Shown piece after piece: positions 13,068 to 21,474 of a DNA stretch of 23,737 bases (positions are counted from its first letter, which is position 1; the number at the start of each line of letters is the position of its first letter). The notes beneath the pieces were generated by a model. The model saw nothing but the letters and a program-made list of their open reading frames with translations, did no database searches and was not told where the DNA came from. The stretch is from IMG/VR virus record IMGVR_UViG_3300048838_000666, positions 1-23,737 of that record. One strand, 5' to 3'. Position numbers and translations under genes: made by a program. The stretch is from a virus.

Positions 13068-14495
13068 ATGGGTCGACTATTGATGGCTTCTCCGTTCGAT
13101 TGGGATACGGCTACAATCGGCGGATCAGACAATCCCGTTGGTACGCCCCTGAGCAACTTGACTAAGACTGATCCGACTCTTTTGTGGAGTTCGGGTAGCA
13201 ATCCAAACCCCTACATCACATTCGACGCTGGTATCAGTCGACAACTCAATCTCATTTCCCCACTATTCTCCAGGTGCTCAAAGTACGCAACCTGGAGAGC
13301 TCGCATTGGAGCTGACCCCACCTTTGCGAGCAATGCCCACGACTCCGAAAGCACTTGGGGCCGAGCTATTTCTTTGGATAATGGGCTAATGCGGACCAAT
13401 TACAACGGCTATAGCTTCCAAAGCTTTACCGTCGCATTCCGAATCCTTCTTCGAAGTACTCGCGATGGCTTGATCATGAGCAAAACTGGGACTGCACCAT
13501 ACTCCATGAATCTGAATATCATCAATGTCACTGGTGGTCCCAAGCTTCGGTGGGGAGTTCCCAGTCACCCCTACGCTGAACTTCCCATCGAGATCATTCC
13601 CGGAGTCTGGCATCACTGTGCAGTCTCGTATGATTCGGTTACCCGTCAATTGCAGCTCTTTTGGAATACGAAACTGATGGCAGTCAATACCCACACGGAT
13701 AACGTGGCACAAGACAGTGGGTATGATCTAGTCTTTGGTAGCTCTACGGCTGGAGCTGACTTCATGGTTCAGCAGGTAAGTCTCTGGGACTATGCGAAGA
13801 ATGCTACGCAGATTGCTGAGATCGCTTCGCAACCCCTCCAATACCCCTGGACTTACCCCAACCTCGTGTCCTACTGGCCGATGGCAGAAGACACTGGATC
13901 TTCTGTGGCAGCGTCCGCCGAGGTTGGCGCGGGTAGTGATCCTCGACCGATGGCTCTCTCTGGAACATATCATTGGACTTACGGGATGCCTGTCTGGGCT
14001 TCTGCAGGCCTTGACAATTATGACCGAGTCCATGGCATGTACTATTTCCCGAACGTCGCAGACATCAATGGTCAAAGGTACGTTCGGTTGGATTTCCGTG
14101 ACCCTGGCAAGTCCAATGTCGAGCTTGGTCGCGTAGTCATCTCGAAGGCTTATCAGCCCAGTCGCAACTACAAGTACAACGCGGCATATGGCCACAGAGA
14201 CCAAAGCGACGTATTCCGAGCACCTAGTGGTTCGGTATCCATTCGTCGTGGAGCCAATGTGCCGTTTGCCAAGTACGCGATCCAATTCACGAATGAGCGT
14301 GAGCTCAGAGCCAATGTCATGGAAATGCAACGTAGGGTGGGAGGGTCCAGAGAAGTTCTGGTAATCCTAGACCCAGATGACGACGGCTTTCGCATCCAAA
14401 GGATGTATTACGGACTAATGGCGTCCGTATCACAGAATGTTCATCAAAACTTCAGCCTGTTCGAAGCAGGATTCGAAGTGGAGGGCCTGGTTTAA
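13068..14495 (+). CDS. Tail protein with inserted LamG/concanavalin-like lectin domain
   Basis: This 475-residue protein looks like a split tail-tip protein with a lectin fold in the middle. The N-terminal part (about 1-95) and C-terminal part (about 325-475) resemble one phage family: DAGISRQLNLISPLFSRCSKY and ATWRARIG early; YVRLDFRDP, VELGRVVISKAYQPSRNY and a closing MYYGLMASV late. Between them, about residues 110-260, lies a LamG-like jelly roll, with FTVAFRILLRSTRDGLIMSK, the typical VWHHCAVSYDSVTRQLQLFWN strand pair, and FMVQQVSLWDYAKNATQIAEI. LamG domains often bind glycans, so this may touch host-surface sugars. The gene starts one base after the previous stop and has a weak Shine-Dalgarno; a second ATG at 13083 is possible. 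Confidence 0.68.
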   Translation: MGRLLMASPFDWDTATIGGSDNPVGTPLSNLTKTDPTLLWSSGSNPNPYITFDAGISRQLNLISPLFSRCSKYATWRARIGADPTFASNAHDSESTWGRAISLDNGLMRTNYNGYSFQSFTVAFRILLRSTRDGLIMSKTGTAPYSMNLNIINVTGGPKLRWGVPSHPYAELPIEIIPGVWHHCAVSYDSVTRQLQLFWNTKLMAVNTHTDNVAQDSGYDLVFGSSTAGADFMVQQVSLWDYAKNATQIAEIASQPLQYPWTYPNLVSYWPMAEDTGSSVAASAEVGAGSDPRPMALSGTYHWTYGMPVWASAGLDNYDRVHGMYYFPNVADINGQRYVRLDFRDPGKSNVELGRVVISKAYQPSRNYKYNAAYGHRDQSDVFRAPSGSVSIRRGANVPFAKYAIQFTNERELRANVMEMQRRVGGSREVLVILDPDDDGFRIQRMYYGLMASVSQNVHQNFSLFEAGFEVEGLV

Positions 14496-17023
14496 TGTCT
14501 CGGCTGATTCGACTTCTGGTCATCGCTCTCGCGCTAGTTGTGGGGACAGTCCCCGCTCAAGCAGCATTCGATCTTCCGAACGCGGTCCGAGAGAGTACCA
14601 ATTCCACCGGAACGGGTACAATCACTCTCGATGGTGCTGCATCGGGATATTTGTCTTTCGGTTCGCAGATCGCGAACAATGACAAAGTCTTCTACACGAT
14701 CTACAACAACACGGACATCGAGGTAGGTGAAGGTACCTTCCTGACTGGTCCGAATCGAATCCAGCGTGATGTGGTTCTGTACTCCACCAATGCAAATGCA
14801 TTGGTGAACTTCCCTGCAGGGTCCAAGACGGTCACATCTTCGCTGCCCGCAGAAGCAATCAAAAGCCTCACTGATCCGGCAGCAGCCGGTGGCTTCCTGG
14901 TACGAACCTCGAAGAACAACTACACCGCCCGAACCCTCTCTGTGGCAGGTGGTCTGGCGATCACAAATGCCAACGGCATTTCGGGCAACCCCCTGATCGA
15001 CGCCTCTTCACTTCCCTGTGGAGACAACACGACCACCTGTCGAGCCATCAGAGATTCGGATGCTGACGGCGACATTTGTGACGATCTCCAGATCGGAGTC
15101 AATTACCTCATCGATCCGGGTCGACCCGACTGGGGAGATTACCAAGACATTTACTTGGCCGCTCCTCCCATCGGCGAGTATGACTGTCGACAACGAGTCC
15201 GAATCTGCCTCAGTACGGGTTCCACCACGGGGTCGAATGAACCGTCCTGCGACGCTGCCAATCAAAATCTGATGCCCGTGATCCATGGCGTTGGTCCCTG
15301 GGATACCGTCAGAATCAAGGGCACCGCAGACGGAGTCAATGATCCGTACCCGTGGGAACCCAATGCCAGTGGCCCGGATGCGATGATTTGGATCGGTGAC
15401 CTCTGGAATGATGAAGCTGGGTACGTGAATGTCGATTGGCCGTGGATCTGGGCAGACGACGTCCATCACTCCATCCTTACCGCATACCCGTGGAATCGGG
15501 TAATGCCGATCTTCTGTGACGGCTGCAGCGGAGAAATTGGATGGAAGTTCAAGACACTTACCGACGGTATCAGTACCACCACCGCCTTCTATCCTACTTT
15601 CGTAGGAATCAATCTCAAAGTGAACATGGATGCCTACATCCAGCCGGGTTTCACCAGAGAAGTGCAGCCCTCCTTCGCCGCTGCATTTTTCCAAGGAAAC
15701 GGCATCAGCATCGCTGGAACGTCGAATGTTGGTGGCTTGGGGTTTGGTCGTGACCTTACTCCCGCTACTCTCTACTTTGGTAGTGCGTCAAATGCCAACA
15801 TCTACGGTGATACCAATGCCATCACTTTCGATGGAAGCTATGAGATTCTGGATGGGAGCCGAATCGAAGGTGGCCCGCTGGGGGCCGTAGAATCTCAAGA
15901 TGCACAAAGAGTCACTCTTCGAGGTAGACTCAGTTCTTCTGCCACGACCAAGCCGACGCTAAACTTTGCAACCAGCTCGGGAGCAAAGGGAACGGTCATC
16001 ACTTTCGACGGCGCAGACGTAGTAGGTTCTCAATCACTCAACATGCCTGTAAGGTTCACTGGCATTAACATCAATGCCAATTACCCCCACAGGATCATTG
16101 CAAATGGCACTTTCTGGAATACATACAACGGTGATAATGGTGGAATCTTCGGGTGTCTAAACATGACATTCACTCCATCTCCACGTTGTATCGTCAACCT
16201 GGCGGCATCTCGTCGAATGGGAAAGGGTCCGTGGTTTTCCGCACCCCCTACCAAGTTCGACGATACTCAGCAGATCTTCTTCGATCATCCTCAGAAGAAG
16301 TACTACACCATCCGAGTTCCGGATGGAACATCTGCATCTGGAAAGTGCATCCTGAATCCGCTGTCGGCTACACCCACCATCGGGACTTGTGATGCTACGG
16401 CATACATCGACTTCAAGGAGGATGTTTTCCTCACTGATTCGATGATCAAGCTGACCGAAGATTCAGTTGCAAGCTCTTCATGCATGATCGCACTTCAGGA
16501 ATCCGTAGATGTGGGGTCCACGACCTTTTCAAACTACGGGATGATGAATAGCACGTGCACGGCAGACAACACTCCCCATGCTTGCTGCTCGGGCTCTGGC
16601 GCGGGAAATTGCCGTAGCCATGGAGGCTGGAATGAGATTCACTACGGTGAAGCCGCCAGCTCCCTTCGATCAATTTCCACAGATCAACAGGGAGAGACAT
16701 ACAACGTCATCAACAACGGTCTCATCAAGGCTGGTGAGCGAATCCGATTTCAATTCCAGCAGCTGAAACGATGCAACGGCGGAACTCGAGCCAACTGGGA
16801 TTGCGAAGTCGATGGCGATTGCCCCAGCAGCACCTGTGGAAACATCACCAATAGCTGTGGCAATACCGCTGAAATGCAACTCACTTTCTCTACCATCCCG
16901 GTAGAGCCCGAACCTCAGTGTTACGACATGGTAGACAACGATTCTGATGGTCTTGTGGACTTCAACGAAAGCGGTCCGGGTTGGGATACCGGTTGCACGA
17001 GCCGCTTGGATAACAGCGAATAA
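14495..17023 (+). CDS. Fibre-like protein with Sec signal peptide and cysteine-rich body
   Basis: This 842-residue protein starts with an N-region (MSRLIR), a hydrophobic core and a SPase I site after AQA (residue 23), a textbook Sec signal. Immediately after comes a domain (about 24-125) that I recognise from phage tail-fibre N-termini: TNSTGTGTITLDGAASGYLSF, then YYTIYNN-like, VGEGTF, RDVVLYSTNANALVNFPAGS. The rest is beta-rich with a parallel-beta-helix feel (about 390-560) and 24 cysteines overall. Putative calcium-binding aspartate motifs lie at 187-197 (DSDADGDICDD) and near the end (DNDSDGLVDF). Cysteine clusters lie at 688-706 and 760-782. The ATG overlaps the previous stop (TAATG). 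Skipping the signal peptide would require the GTG at codon 16, which has no Shine-Dalgarno. Role is either receptor-binding fibre or a secreted fibre-derived protein. Confidence 0.72.
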   Translation: MSRLIRLLVIALALVVGTVPAQAAFDLPNAVRESTNSTGTGTITLDGAASGYLSFGSQIANNDKVFYTIYNNTDIEVGEGTFLTGPNRIQRDVVLYSTNANALVNFPAGSKTVTSSLPAEAIKSLTDPAAAGGFLVRTSKNNYTARTLSVAGGLAITNANGISGNPLIDASSLPCGDNTTTCRAIRDSDADGDICDDLQIGVNYLIDPGRPDWGDYQDIYLAAPPIGEYDCRQRVRICLSTGSTTGSNEPSCDAANQNLMPVIHGVGPWDTVRIKGTADGVNDPYPWEPNASGPDAMIWIGDLWNDEAGYVNVDWPWIWADDVHHSILTAYPWNRVMPIFCDGCSGEIGWKFKTLTDGISTTTAFYPTFVGINLKVNMDAYIQPGFTREVQPSFAAAFFQGNGISIAGTSNVGGLGFGRDLTPATLYFGSASNANIYGDTNAITFDGSYEILDGSRIEGGPLGAVESQDAQRVTLRGRLSSSATTKPTLNFATSSGAKGTVITFDGADVVGSQSLNMPVRFTGININANYPHRIIANGTFWNTYNGDNGGIFGCLNMTFTPSPRCIVNLAASRRMGKGPWFSAPPTKFDDTQQIFFDHPQKKYYTIRVPDGTSASGKCILNPLSATPTIGTCDATAYIDFKEDVFLTDSMIKLTEDSVASSSCMIALQESVDVGSTTFSNYGMMNSTCTADNTPHACCSGSGAGNCRSHGGWNEIHYGEAASSLRSISTDQQGETYNVINNGLIKAGERIRFQFQQLKRCNGGTRANWDCEVDGDCPSSTCGNITNSCGNTAEMQLTFSTIPVEPEPQCYDMVDNDSDGLVDFNESGPGWDTGCTSRLDNSE

Positions 17024-17316
17024 TGGAGATCAACCAAGAGTTCTTGAAGACGGCGATTGAGACAATAGGCGTCGCGTTCAGTGCTGCTGTGGGCGTAGGC
17101 GCTTATCTCAAGAAGCAGGTGAGGCACCTGATCCAGACGGAACTCCGTCCAATCTCGAAGCGCCTGCGGAAAGCCGAAAACAATCACCGCATCCTGGCAC
17201 AGGGACTATATCTAAACCTTCACAAGGATGGCTCTTGTGAAAGTGAGGATTGTCCCTGTTATTATCTCGAACGCCTTTCCAAAGAAGACAAAGAGGAAGA
17301 AGAAGAAGATGATTGA
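17023..17316 (+). CDS. Small membrane protein, holin candidate
   Basis: This 97-residue protein has one hydrophobic segment (about residues 9-28, TAIETIGVAFSAAVGVGAYL), then a basic amphipathic helix, a short cysteine patch (GSCESEDCPCYYLERL) and an acidic tail ending EEEEEDD. Its place, just before putative cell-wall genes, and its size make it a candidate for a single-span holin or a small membrane anchor. The segment is only moderately hydrophobic, so an alternative is a tail or membrane-associated accessory protein. The ATG overlaps the fibre stop (TAATG) and translation is probably coupled, as no good Shine-Dalgarno is visible. The gene overlaps the next start by eight bases. Confidence 0.5.
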   Translation: MEINQEFLKTAIETIGVAFSAAVGVGAYLKKQVRHLIQTELRPISKRLRKAENNHRILAQGLYLNLHKDGSCESEDCPCYYLERLSKEDKEEEEEDD

Positions 17317-18235
17317 ACCCAACTACGTCGACATGGTCAAAGTCCGAGACGAAGAGATCCGCGGCAAAAGCATGGAGCAGATTGCTCGCTGTGGAATGTT
17401 CGTTCACTCCGCCAATCCTGCAGTGGGTCACAAGCCCGATCGCTGGTCTCGTTTCATCTGGGATGAAATCGTCCGTGGTCAAATGATCGTGGCGATCAAC
17501 AATCGACTCCAAGCCAAAGAAGGCGTGAAGCCAGTCCAATGGCTCATCGGTGGGATTCGAGCCGACGTCATCGTCCATTATCCTTACATGGGCGATCTCA
17601 TCGGCTTCGACCCGAGCTGGGGCTTGGGGATGTCCGAAAAAGCCTGGGACCGAACTCGTCGCAACTGGGAAAACAATGGATGGAAGTGGGGATATGACTC
17701 GGGCATCGCTTCCCTGCAGGGGCAGCTCGAGACGGCCCTGGCGAAGCGAGGCCAGGTTCCGGTACCCTACGTCCAAGTCAACGCGACCAACAAGACGTTG
17801 AACATCTATTGCTATGCAATGGACGTTCGACAAGACCGTTGGTTCGATTGGCTGATCGAGAAGTCCCTCGAGATGGCAAAGGCTACTGGCTGTTGGACTT
17901 TCTGGCACGGCTTCAAATCTGGCCTGAACGAGAATACGCCTTCACAGATAGTGTTGCCCGATTCCGTTCACCAGCTCGAGTACCAGAACGGCGAGTCGAC
18001 CTGGCAGAGTCGGCCCCACAATCCTGGTGGAACGATGCTGACGTATGCTCACTATAAGCCTGGTGAGTTTCTGGATCGTTTCATGGTCCTGACCAAACGG
18101 ATGCGAATGGCGGGTATCGAGATTCTTCTCAACGAGGCTTATGCCAATCAGGGCCGCCGCTGGCTGTGGACAGAGAAATACCCCGAGGTCGCCGGACTTT
18201 TGATCGGCGAGATGCAAGTAAGGACCATGACATGA
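17309..18235 (+). CDS. Unrecognised Trp-rich protein, possibly a TIM-barrel glycosidase-like fold
   Basis: I do not recognise this 308-residue protein with certainty. It has 15 tryptophans and alternating strand-helix units: CGMFVHSANP, VQWLIGGIR, YVQVNATN, YAMDVRQDRWFDWLIEKSLEMAKATG, CWTFWHGFKSG and AGIEILLNEAYANQ. The D-x-R...W-x-D-W-L...A-x-A-x-G pattern followed by strands is reminiscent of glycosidase-like TIM barrels, with acidic candidates in LLNEAY and AMDVRQD. That is inference only. I start it at ATG 17309 after an AAGAGGAAG stretch, overlapping the previous stop by eight bases. An upstream in-frame ATG at 17228 would add 27 basic residues lying inside the previous gene, which is less likely. 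It sits between a holin candidate and an endolysin, so cell-wall or surface-glycan degradation is plausible, but it has no signal peptide. Confidence 0.55.
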   Translation: MIEPNYVDMVKVRDEEIRGKSMEQIARCGMFVHSANPAVGHKPDRWSRFIWDEIVRGQMIVAINNRLQAKEGVKPVQWLIGGIRADVIVHYPYMGDLIGFDPSWGLGMSEKAWDRTRRNWENNGWKWGYDSGIASLQGQLETALAKRGQVPVPYVQVNATNKTLNIYCYAMDVRQDRWFDWLIEKSLEMAKATGCWTFWHGFKSGLNENTPSQIVLPDSVHQLEYQNGESTWQSRPHNPGGTMLTYAHYKPGEFLDRFMVLTKRMRMAGIEILLNEAYANQGRRWLWTEKYPEVAGLLIGEMQVRTMT

Positions 18236-18705
18236 GTGCCGCCATACCCGTCTTCACACACGCCCCTTGGGCCGAGCTCATCTTCCAGGAATTCATCACT
18301 GGAATCAAAGAGTGGCCCGATCCGGGTGAAAATACCCGCATCCTGGAATATTTCCGAGTAGGGTGCCCTGGTTTCACGCCGCCCAACGGAGATGAAACCA
18401 ACTGGTGCGCTGCAGCGATTAGATGGGCACTCGTGACGTCCAGGGTGCCGAATGCGACTGGGAAACCTCTCGCGCGTTCGTTACTCACGGTCGGCGAAGC
18501 GATCCAAACACCCAAGCCCGGGTGCGTAGTGGTGATGTGGCGCGGGTCGAAGACAAGCTGGGAAGGACACGTAGGTATCTGGGTTGGTCAGTTCGGAGAA
18601 AACAACCTCGTACTCGGAGCAAATCAATCCAATGCAATCACTGTGGCACCTTTCCCGAAGAATCGCGTTCTGGGGTATCGTTGGTTCCGTGCTCCTTTCC
18701 ACTAG
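18232..18705 (+). CDS. Endolysin-like peptidase, TIGR02594 (NlpC/P60-CHAP type)
   Basis: This 157-residue protein fits the TIGR02594 phage family of NlpC/P60 or CHAP-like cell-wall peptidases. Catalytic candidates: Cys59 in ETNWCAAAIRWAL, His113 in WEGHVGIWVG, and Asn131 in LVLGANQSNAI, with the ending VLGYRWFRAP also typical. It begins with the usual HAPWAELIFQE helix. It probably cuts peptide bonds of peptidoglycan at the end of infection. There is no signal peptide or transmembrane span, so release would need a holin or the phage's other membrane proteins. The start is ATG 18232, overlapping the preceding stop in ATGA; an in-frame upstream ATG at 18166 lies inside the previous gene and is rejected. 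Its last 74 bases overlap a second gene in another frame. Confidence 0.85.
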   Translation: MSAAIPVFTHAPWAELIFQEFITGIKEWPDPGENTRILEYFRVGCPGFTPPNGDETNWCAAAIRWALVTSRVPNATGKPLARSLLTVGEAIQTPKPGCVVVMWRGSKTSWEGHVGIWVGQFGENNLVLGANQSNAITVAPFPKNRVLGYRWFRAPFH

Positions 18706-18874: not shown

Positions 18875-19311
18875 ATGAAGACCTCGATCAAGACTTCGAA
18901 CTAGAAAAGCTCGAGGCTGCAAGAGAAGGTAGGCCCCCTAGGAAAAAGAAGTGGCTTGCAATCGACAAACTCAGGAAAGAGTTAGGTCGAGGCGAGATGG
19001 GACCCAGAAACATAGTCCCTATCTTACCCGAAGAATTGGCTCAGGCCCCAGAACCCGAAACGGATCAATGGAGTCGTAACCTAGCAGATAGGGCCACAAG
19101 AATGGCTCAATCGCTGCCACAGGAACAACGCCACGTCATAGTCATGGCCCTCCGATGCCTTTCTCATAGAACGGCAGAGGGTAAGGTTCGAGTGTGGTTG
19201 GAATTAAATCCCAACCGACGAGCAACTCACAAAGTCATTGCTGAAGAGGTAGGACTAAGTCGATTCAGCGTGACTCGAGCACTAGTAAAACTCAGGAGAA
19301 AGACCAAGTGA
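18856..19311 (+). CDS. Sigma-region-4-like helix-turn-helix regulator
   Basis: This 151-residue basic protein has a C-terminal domain (about residues 87-149) patterned like sigma-70 region 4: SLPQEQRHVIVMALRCL, then a short turn and a second helix pair ATHKVIAEEVGLSRFSVTRALVKLRRK (about 123-148), a canonical helix-turn-helix with GLS-x-x-x-V. The N-terminal half is charged and looks disordered or helical. A role as phage transcription regulator, perhaps for late or delayed genes, is likely; no full sigma core-binding region 2 is visible. The start is a GTG at 18856, the only early start in frame, with GGAG 12 bases upstream. It overlaps the previous gene by 19 bases and the next by four (GTGA). 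Confidence 0.62.
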   Translation: MCPSGVDEDLDQDFELEKLEAAREGRPPRKKKWLAIDKLRKELGRGEMGPRNIVPILPEELAQAPEPETDQWSRNLADRATRMAQSLPQEQRHVIVMALRCLSHRTAEGKVRVWLELNPNRRATHKVIAEEVGLSRFSVTRALVKLRRKTK

Positions 19312-19646
19312 AAAGATTCACCGTAGTTTTACTCCTCAGTCTGGCCTGTGCTCCGACTTGGCTCCACAGTGAAGAATCAGCCCAGTATGTCTTGGGATCA
19401 GCAGACCAGGGTTGTACCGCTTCGCCTGACATAGCGGGCGGTATCCCTTGTCTGAATCATGATTCTGCGTATTGGGTAGGTGGAACCGAAGAGGATCGAC
19501 TCATAGCGGATGCCCAGCTATTCTATGAGTTGATTCTCTACGGGGTCCCCGAGGACGTTGCTTCGATGTATTACCGCGTAGTCCGAGAGCTTGGATGGAC
19601 TAGGTGGCCCTACAAGAAGCAACGAACTCGGGGACCTCCGAGATAA
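19308..19646 (+). CDS. Secreted protein with phospholipase-A2-like CxxHD motif
   Basis: This 112-residue protein starts MKRF with a hydrophobic core (residues 5-13) and plausible cleavage after about residue 21 (LHS), so it should be exported. The mature part carries ADQGCTASPDIAGGIPCLNHDSAYWVGGTEEDR. The CLNHD at 48-52 with Tyr55 and Gly58-Gly59 recalls the C-x-x-H-D-x-x-Y active site of phospholipase A2 and related bacterial secreted proteins with HD-x-A-Y-W-x-GG-T. The second cysteine (Cys36) could form a disulfide. If active it would hydrolyse membrane phospholipids during lysis. The classic calcium loop is not obvious and length is short, so a non-catalytic relative is possible. GTG start overlaps the HTH gene stop. 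It is the last late gene; its stop directly abuts the opposing gene. Confidence 0.6.
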   Translation: MKRFTVVLLLSLACAPTWLHSEESAQYVLGSADQGCTASPDIAGGIPCLNHDSAYWVGGTEEDRLIADAQLFYELILYGVPEDVASMYYRVVRELGWTRWPYKKQRTRGPPR

Positions 19647-19730: not shown

Positions 19731-20098
19731 TTCTTCCTCCGAGCGATGATCTGCTGAATCCGATTCGCATCATCGCCCCCGACCGGCCATTCCCACCTTC
19801 CGCCAGGTCGATTGATCCCGGCCTTCCTGAGCATCCTTCGAAGATCCTTTGCACTGATCTTGTGGTCGAATGCCAATTCTTTCAACGTGACCACGGGACC
19901 CTCGACGGCTCCAGGCTTTCTAGCCTTCTTCCGTCGCTTTGTGGATTGCGTAGCCGCGTAGGATTGGTAATTCGGTTGATTGGACGGAGGTGTGACGGGC
20001 CGCTTCTTTCGTCTGACCTTGGCTTCTGCCTCAACGATCTCGAAAAGTTCCTTGACCCTCTTGACAATGGCCTCTTTCTCGGCCGGGACAGCACTCAA
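19727..20098 (-). CDS. Small basic DNA-binding-like protein
   Basis: This 123-residue protein has a charged helical N-terminus, a basic and Ser/Thr/Gln-rich linker (KRRKKARKPG region) and a C-terminal domain from about residue 68: VVTLKELAFDHKISAKDLRRMLRKAGINRPGGRWEWP, then ANRIQQIIARRK. The K-E-L-A...K-x-L-R-x-x-L-R-x-x-G-x...P-G-R-W-x-W pattern is seen in small phage and actinophage proteins and reads as a helix-turn-helix-like or SAP-like DNA-binding domain. The TTG start overlaps the helicase stop in TTGA and is supported by AAAGGAG seven bases upstream. Between helicase and membrane peptide, it may tether replication or act as a regulator. Function is inferred only from composition. Confidence 0.6.
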   Translation of the reverse strand: MSAVPAEKEAIVKRVKELFEIVEAEAKVRRKKRPVTPPSNQPNYQSYAATQSTKRRKKARKPGAVEGPVVTLKELAFDHKISAKDLRRMLRKAGINRPGGRWEWPVGGDDANRIQQIIARRKK

Positions 20099-21474
20099 GC
20101 GGTTCTCCTTTGTTCCATCCGAAGAAGGACTTGTGTACGCTTACCCTTGGATTTAACGGTCTTGTAGATATCTTCATCCACTGTGTCTCTGGCAATCAGA
20201 TGATAGAAGATTACATTCCTAGTCTGTCCTTTCCTGTATAGGCGTGTTACGGCTTGGTCGAAATCAATCCACGAGTGCGTCGTGGAGTACATAATCCCAA
20301 TGCGAGCTACCCGAAGCTCGTTAACCCCGATCCCACCGACACGGATCTGTGAAACGAAGACTTTTGCCGACCGGTCCTGCACAAACTGCTTTCGGAGCGG
20401 CATTCGCTTTCTTCGGTTAATGCCCCCATGCATTTGGATGGGATTGAGACCCATAGCAGTGCAAAGCTTGGCAACTGCTTCTATCTCGGGTCTGAATCTA
20501 CAGTAGATTACGACCTTCTCATTCCCGATCTGCTGGAGAAGTTCTTTTAGCTTCCGAGTCTTAGCTCGGCTAATCCTGTGAATTTGTTTCCTATCGTCTA
20601 CGAAGAAACCTCCTGCAATCTGTTGCAGACGGGTAGTCTTCGCTAGAACCACAGGAGCAAAAGCCATCTTGCCCTTGAATTCTGCCACAGCTTCAGCCTC
20701 GAGCTCATCATATATCTTTTTGACATCGGGCTCGAGGTCGAATCGCTTTACGGAGTGATTGAGCTCGGGCATTTGCTCGACGTCTTCGATCTCAACTCTC
20801 ATCATTCGTGAATGAATCTTTTCCCTAAGCTTGGCCTTCTTAGTCTCTTTGACCACAAGCTTAGTGTACCCATACCCGATGTTCTTGGCATATCTCTCGG
20901 TGAATTTACCCCAATGGGTCCCAAACACTTCGGGACATGCAAATCGGTATTGGGCGAAGACGTCGAGACCGCCCTTATCAAATGGGGTCCCAGACAAAAG
21001 CAATTTGTACTGGGTCAATTTCCCAATTTGATATAGGACTTTAGATTGCTTCGAGGAATGTTTCTTGATCATATGGGATTCATCGGCGATTGCGACGTCC
21101 CATCGTAATCTCTTGAACCAGTTCTTCCTTCGGACTACGAGCTGATAGCCTGCGAGAACGATTAGGGTGTTTTTTGCACCCCCTGATTTCCTAACGATCG
21201 ATCGAAACTCAGCTCCCTGCAGTGCTCCGAAGTCATCTAACCGGATCACCCTTCGCTCGAAGTCGGCGAACTTTTCGATTTCTTCCAGCCATGTATCGAT
21301 CACGACCGGCGGACAAATGACAAGGACTGTAGAGATTGGTTGCCTAGCCTCGAGATAACCAATGGCTGCGGCAGTCTTCCCTACCCCCTGCTTGAAATAG
21401 AGAGCGTAACCGTCAAACTTCATCGCTCGGGCTATGCCAAGCTTTTGGTGTAGTTTGAGAGGGATTTTCGTCAT
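20095..21474 (-). CDS. SF2 (SNF2/DEAD-like) DNA helicase
   Basis: This 459-residue protein has a full set of SF2 motifs: LHQ at 8-10 (Q-motif-like), KQGVGKT at 28-34 (Walker A), DESH at 131-134 (motif II), SGTP at 161-164 (motif III), VVIYCRFRPE at 321-330 (IV), SQIRVGGIGVNE at 375-386 (V) and QAVTRLYRKGQT at 407-418 (VI). The order and motif VI form are like SNF2-type phage helicases. It should unwind or translocate on DNA in replication or recombination, fitting its neighbours. The ATG has no good Shine-Dalgarno; a TATAAT box sits seven bases upstream, so initiation may be near-leaderless. The last codons overlap the next gene. Confidence 0.88.
   Translation of the reverse strand: MTKIPLKLHQKLGIARAMKFDGYALYFKQGVGKTAAAIGYLEARQPISTVLVICPPVVIDTWLEEIEKFADFERRVIRLDDFGALQGAEFRSIVRKSGGAKNTLIVLAGYQLVVRRKNWFKRLRWDVAIADESHMIKKHSSKQSKVLYQIGKLTQYKLLLSGTPFDKGGLDVFAQYRFACPEVFGTHWGKFTERYAKNIGYGYTKLVVKETKKAKLREKIHSRMMRVEIEDVEQMPELNHSVKRFDLEPDVKKIYDELEAEAVAEFKGKMAFAPVVLAKTTRLQQIAGGFFVDDRKQIHRISRAKTRKLKELLQQIGNEKVVIYCRFRPEIEAVAKLCTAMGLNPIQMHGGINRRKRMPLRKQFVQDRSAKVFVSQIRVGGIGVNELRVARIGIMYSTTHSWIDFDQAVTRLYRKGQTRNVIFYHLIARDTVDEDIYKTVKSKGKRTQVLLRMEQRRTA

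Follow-up and report, generated by a model that had tools for sequence, protein, structure and literature searches.

Tailed phages are taken to build their virions entirely in the cytoplasm, a compartment in which stable disulfides are not normally formed, and export followed by cross-linking before use is, to our knowledge, not how phage fibres are made. A tail fibre produced as a Sec preprotein was not found in the open-access literature. The closest described systems are other phage proteins that carry signal peptides. One is gp40 of Xanthomonas phage PBR31, a signal-peptide esterase that resembles tail-associated hydrolases and is encoded in the spanin region (PMC10975493). Another is Lom of phage lambda, a signal-peptide protein located in the host envelope, whose gene lies between the tail-spike and tail-fibre genes (PMC12309495). 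In addition, Lys44 of phage fOg44, a secreted endolysin, is a late protein that a signal peptide directs to Sec export (PMC6116005).

Here we analysed the window, i.e. the whole 23,737-nt (23.7 kb) IMG/VR record IMGVR_UViG_3300048838_000666 of a bacterial virus, in which a plus-strand gene (14495-17023) encodes an 842-aa preprotein that joins a predicted signal peptide to a tail-fibre N-terminal domain and a Cys-rich body. Judged from its sequence, export of this fibre-type protein is highly probable.

Genomic setting and start of the fibre gene

The gene order of the window is typical of a tailed phage, with a portal-like fragment, a scaffold-like gene, the major capsid gene (Gp13-like, Pfam E 5e-90), connectors, tail tube and tape measure, followed by a 541-aa tail protein that matches phrog_8917, a 475-aa LamG protein, the fibre gene, a small membrane/coiled-coil protein, a 335-aa unknown protein and a cell-wall hydrolase-like protein, after which the replication genes lie on the opposite strand. 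The fibre gene is therefore placed among tail genes, 3' of the tape measure, tail-tip and LamG genes and 5' of the lysis genes, and this position is the same in a Myxococcota prophage described below. The upstream neighbour (13068-14495, plus strand) has a LamG/concanavalin-like domain (PF13385, E 1.5e-12; phrog_8610) without a signal peptide and is likely a second fibre or a tail-tip protein. Downstream, the small membrane/coiled-coil protein (17023-17316, plus strand), recognized by its sequence and by a gene of the same kind 3' of the prophage homologue, is holin-like at a guess, and the lysis region includes the hydrolase-like protein (18232-18705, plus strand; TIGR02594; start codon picked by eye).

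A 112-aa ORF at 19308-19646 (plus strand) has a second signal-peptide-like N-terminus, matches phrog_6098 (E 8e-6, function not known) and contains a stretch, CLNHDSAYWVGGTEEDRLIAD, that recalls phospholipase A2-like HD motifs; it is possibly a lysis accessory. The best capsid relative of the window is Tunturiibacter phage Tunturi_4 (42%), in whose tail genes no ORF with a strong signal peptide was found.

The fibre gene begins with an ATG at 14495 that overlaps the LamG stop codon, TAA, and has a Shine-Dalgarno sequence, GGAGG (14480-14484, plus strand), in front of it. The first-pass annotation had considered that translation might begin downstream, at GTG codon 16. This start is not favoured, since the anti-Shine-Dalgarno energy is -9.8 kcal/mol at the ATG and +1.7 at the GTG, i.e. 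the ribosome site is strong at the former and absent from the latter. Homologues starting downstream did not appear, nor did any other outcome that the annotation had named as contrary to its proposal. Misassembly of the window was rejected, as contig L002 has the identical junction (100% over residues 1-172) and the homologues retain a signal peptide.

The signal peptide and the fibre N-terminal domain

Residues 1-23 (14495-14563, plus strand; MSRLIRLLVIALALVVGTVPAQA) were described at first reading as a signal peptide with an AQA cleavage site, and this description holds. In MSRLIR-LLVIALALVVGTVPAQA/AFDL, the n-, h- and c-regions match a Sec signal, with AxA at the translated N-terminus and predicted cleavage after residue 23 (AQA/A). 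Signal peptides were called not by SignalP but by a home-made rule based on the charge of the n-region, the hydropathy of the h-region and the residues at -3 and -1. The rule passes 2 of the 78 ORFs in the window and 86 of 7628 ORFs from Markov-shuffled DNA, none of which (0/7628) scores as high as the fibre. Among 1605 ORFs of at least 200 aa at 356 control loci with the same fibre domain (2.64 Mb), not one has a strong signal peptide. A signal peptide is kept in the window protein and in both diverged homologues of its body, and the starts of the domain's relatives point to the same boundary.

Directly behind the predicted cleavage site, residues 24-122 (14564-14860, plus strand) form a phage tail-fibre N-terminal domain, a resemblance noticed earlier and borne out by several lines of evidence. 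By tblastn, these residues match annotated fibre proteins of Pelagibacter, Methylophilales, Roseobacter and uncultured phages; a 124-sequence alignment agrees with this; the AlphaFold model of the domain has a pLDDT of 93; and a BFVD fold search returned 34 viral proteins at E <0.001, fibres included. PDB sequence and fold searches with the domain or the body gave nothing convincing. Common as the domain is, with hundreds of copies, neither PHROG nor Pfam yields a significant match to it. It is followed by a linker (residues 123-172; 14861-15010, plus strand) with a fibre-type motif, GFLVRT..YTARTL..GLAITNANGISGNPLID, assigned from weak tblastn matches of residues 104-309 to cyanophage structural proteins and otherwise by eye.

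In most tblastn relatives and 80 IMG/VR relatives, an initiator codon stands at or near the position of residue 23. Among the matches listed, with the window's own contigs left out, ATG or GTG lies exactly there in 308 of 324 domain copies, Met lies one residue later in 10 and four residues later in 2, and the other 4 entries come from G001 and G002, phages with a signal peptide in front of the domain that are each entered twice. The predicted mature N-terminus of the window protein thus coincides with the domain's normal start. In the primary product, 23 residues precede the domain, so that it would occupy the extreme N-terminus of the mature product only. Two pattern scans of viral contigs with complete listings, one that looked for AxA spaced as expected and one that looked for a hydrophobic stretch lacking an ATG, found signal-peptide forms of the domain only in the window's phage, G001 and G002, and a scan of genome contigs for the domain with a signal peptide found none. 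At least 120 loci from another pattern scan constitute a sample unbiased for signal peptides.

The Cys-rich body, its homologues and the C-terminal module

The body (residues 173-803; 15011-16903, plus strand) has no significant match in Pfam, PHROG, NCBIfam or PDB sequence searches, which returned no enzyme domain either. Its structure, predicted without homologues, has a pLDDT of 32, and a beta-rich fold is a guess. The counts first reported for it, 24 Cys in 842 residues and none in the 1754-aa tape measure, are correct; Cys makes up 2.85% of the fibre protein and 0.50% of the other window genes (binomial P 2e-11), and none of the 24 occurs before residue 175, the fibre N-domain having none.

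Two full-length homologues of the body were found. One, from a search of viral contigs with the C-terminal motif, is encoded by G006, a viral contig of 35.4 kb and 68% GC; it has 729 aa, aligns to residues 174-842 (~30% identity, E 8e-74) and has a signal peptide of its own, MIRRALLILFAMTVPLAAIGVGFG, without the fibre N-domain. The other was found with a two-sequence profile (window and G006) on contig C337 of G085, a Myxococcota metagenome-assembled genome (MAG) in which binning errors are possible. It is 43% identical to the window protein over 678 aa (E 3e-169) and starts with MTARISRVLLLLVVAVLLAALAPDALAQ, a signal peptide preceded by GGGAGG, again without the fibre N-domain. This contig carries a lambda-like prophage with head protease/capsid, tail tube, tape measure, central fibre J and endolysin (PHROGs), and its order of tail hub, exported protein, small membrane/coiled-coil protein and hydrolase resembles that of the window. 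The profile matched 1 of 379 genomes in the Myxococcota sample (phylum of G011); the samples of two other phyla gave 0/297 (phylum of G012) and 0/46 (phylum of G013), empty results that weigh little. The only other clear window protein in common with G006 is an SNF2-type helicase (20095-21474, minus strand; 29% identity, E 9e-51).

The window, G006 and G085 proteins have 24, 24 and 20 Cys, respectively, and 18 Cys columns are identical in all three at a three-way identity of 21% (binomial P 3e-8, columns taken as independent), an even number, as suits a putative disulfide-bonded extracytoplasmic protein. Predicted export is a feature common to these three diverged proteins, along with the Cys positions, and the fibre domain is the variable feature, which the window's form of the body has and the other two lack.

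The C-terminal module (residues 806-842; 16910-17020, plus strand), EPQCYDMVDNDSDGLVDFN..GCTSRLDNSE, is by motif comparison typical of exported cellular proteins. Many genomes of Myxococcota, Patescibacteria, Woesearchaeota and other groups encode its motif, CxDxxDNDxDGxxD[FY]. The signal-peptide rule is passed by 55 of 68 motif ORFs with a 5' end (81%) versus 75 of 283 background ORFs of the same loci (~27%), an approximate comparison because motif ORFs were tried at up to six starts and background ORFs at starts within 50 residues. Taken together, the signal peptide, the 18 Cys kept in the homologues and a module of exported proteins lend good support to the prediction of export and oxidative folding, and the earlier proposal of export gains from a signal peptide and Cys positions kept in two diverged homologues.

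Predicted exported proteins in the structural regions of other phages

The window is not a lone oddity, because signal-peptide genes also lie near structural genes in G001, G004, G006, G007 and G008. An alginate-lyase-like protein with a signal peptide is encoded in G008. In G001 (L393/L394; IMGVR_UViG_3300031111_000030), a podovirus-like contig, about eight such genes occupy the head/tail region and include a fibre, a SASA-family carbohydrate esterase and the gene right 3' of the major capsid gene. In Rhizobium phage RHph_I3_11 and a Manatee Spring podovirus, relatives of this post-capsid protein are encoded at the same place and have no signal peptide. Another G001 signal-peptide protein has a domain in common with a virion structural protein of a Xanthomonas phage. 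In G002 (L395, 1462-1953), a signal-peptide-like protein is likewise encoded directly 3' of the major head protein gene, the head proteins of G001 and G002 belonging to different families. In G006 (L520, 17808-18221; L521, 412-2848), the body homologue lies in a run of consecutive signal-peptide genes, of which one encodes a Cys-rich product with beta-helix-like repeats.

Fibre-domain proteins of up to 2127 aa, with a GTG start and no signal peptide, were seen in L362, L365, L373 and L391; their bodies consist of xNTAVGxxSLxxNTTG repeats with 29-59 Cys. Thus, Cys-rich fibres are not always exported. The first-pass annotation had treated abundant Cys as a mark of export, which stands for conserved Cys positions in company with a signal peptide but not for Cys number as such, as the L373 protein has 59 Cys and the fibre N-domain without a signal peptide.

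Possible roles of the fibre-type protein

There is about an even chance that the protein, synthesized as a Sec preprotein, serves as a phage fibre or receptor-binding protein and docks on virions outside the cytoplasm. From the signal peptide, the fibre domain and the conservation, all visible in the sequence, we infer actual export, disulfides and docking as follows. The preprotein would cross the inner membrane during infection, and after cleavage behind AQA the mature protein would begin with AFDLPNAVRE, in register with the start of its cytoplasmic relatives once their Met has been removed (ALVLKDRVKE). The body would form its conserved disulfides in the periplasm, and the co-exported fibre N-domain would then attach the protein to virions when lysis occurs or later, or from outside. 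We know of no role of this N-domain except on virions, so its retention behind an export signal suggests that docking takes place outside the cytoplasm; for a docking domain fused precisely behind a signal peptide, docking there at or after lysis would be the simplest account. Late addition is not far-fetched, given that phage P22 tailspikes add spontaneously, late, to finished particles. Against virion docking, the fibre N-domain is missing from both homologues, and the body can thus work without docking of this kind; the LamG neighbour may already serve as a cytoplasmic fibre; and a fibre exported before lysis would still have to meet tails built in the cytoplasm.

These points bear on the main rival explanation, in which the exported protein stays free or on the cell surface and is never part of the virion; it would act in conversion or block superinfection, by masking receptors or modifying the surface, and its N-domain, acquired by recombination, would serve trimerisation or solubility. 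A free envelope-acting role fits the domain-less but signal-bearing G006 and Myxococcota prophage homologues better than docking does and may be the ancestral one; the C-terminal module shared with exported cellular proteins and the further signal-peptide genes directly 3' in G006 agree with it. We nonetheless consider it rather doubtful for the window protein, whose fibre N-domain and fibre-type linker are intact, whose gene is in the tail-fibre position, and whose signal peptide is joined exactly at the usual start of the domain, which suggests that the domain matters. An exported hydrolase or matrix-acting protein that aids lysis or particle spread, as has been guessed for PBR31 gp40, would suit a gene near the lysis region and has parallels in the signal-peptide SASA esterase of G001, the alginate-lyase-like protein of G008 and the PBR31 esterase itself (PMC10975493), but it is improbable for a body in which Pfam, NCBIfam, PHROGs and PDB sequence searches detect no enzyme domain. 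Least probable is a hydrophobic N-terminus that does not work as a signal, with cytoplasmic assembly and an intact N-terminus, or a misread start. The rule-based call leaves some room for this reading, against which stand the contrast between the ribosome sites at ATG and GTG, the absence of equal scores among the null and control phage ORFs (0/7628 and 0/1605), and signal peptides on homologues whose N-termini otherwise differ.

A wider reading, a little less likely than not, is that some phages build virion parts outside the cytoplasm, namely fibres and, in G001, possibly capsid-associated proteins, which would be exported by Sec, oxidised in the periplasm and fitted during or after lysis. 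A conserved export signal and conserved Cys on a fibre-type protein make periplasmic maturation and late addition of receptor-binding parts testable. If the protein is free instead, it would belong to a new family of envelope proteins that phages export. The three phages that carry the family have genomes that otherwise differ, and one of them ties it to a Myxococcota host through the homologue in the MAG.

Comparison with known systems

The fibre N-domain is most directly compared with gp61 of Roseobacter phage CRP-6 and gp58 of Pelagibacter phage HTVC023P, which are alike over residues 24-122 at ~35-40% and share the invariant V..E.....GTG core; unlike the window protein, they have Met at the residue-23 position, no signal peptide and other bodies. 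At the opposite end, residues 809-842 are matched by the C-terminal module of the secreted CxDxxDNDxDGxxD[FY] proteins of Myxococcota, Patescibacteria, Woesearchaeota and others, which are cellular and have neither a phage fibre domain nor the rest of the window body. As for phage proteins with signal peptides, Lom differs in being a beta-barrel outer-membrane protein without a fibre domain, and Lys44 in being a lysis enzyme rather than a fibre-type protein. PBR31 gp40, compared by description, is an esterase of the spanin region for which no fibre N-domain is reported, but as a phage protein with an N-terminal signal peptide it is the nearest precedent for the protein of the window.
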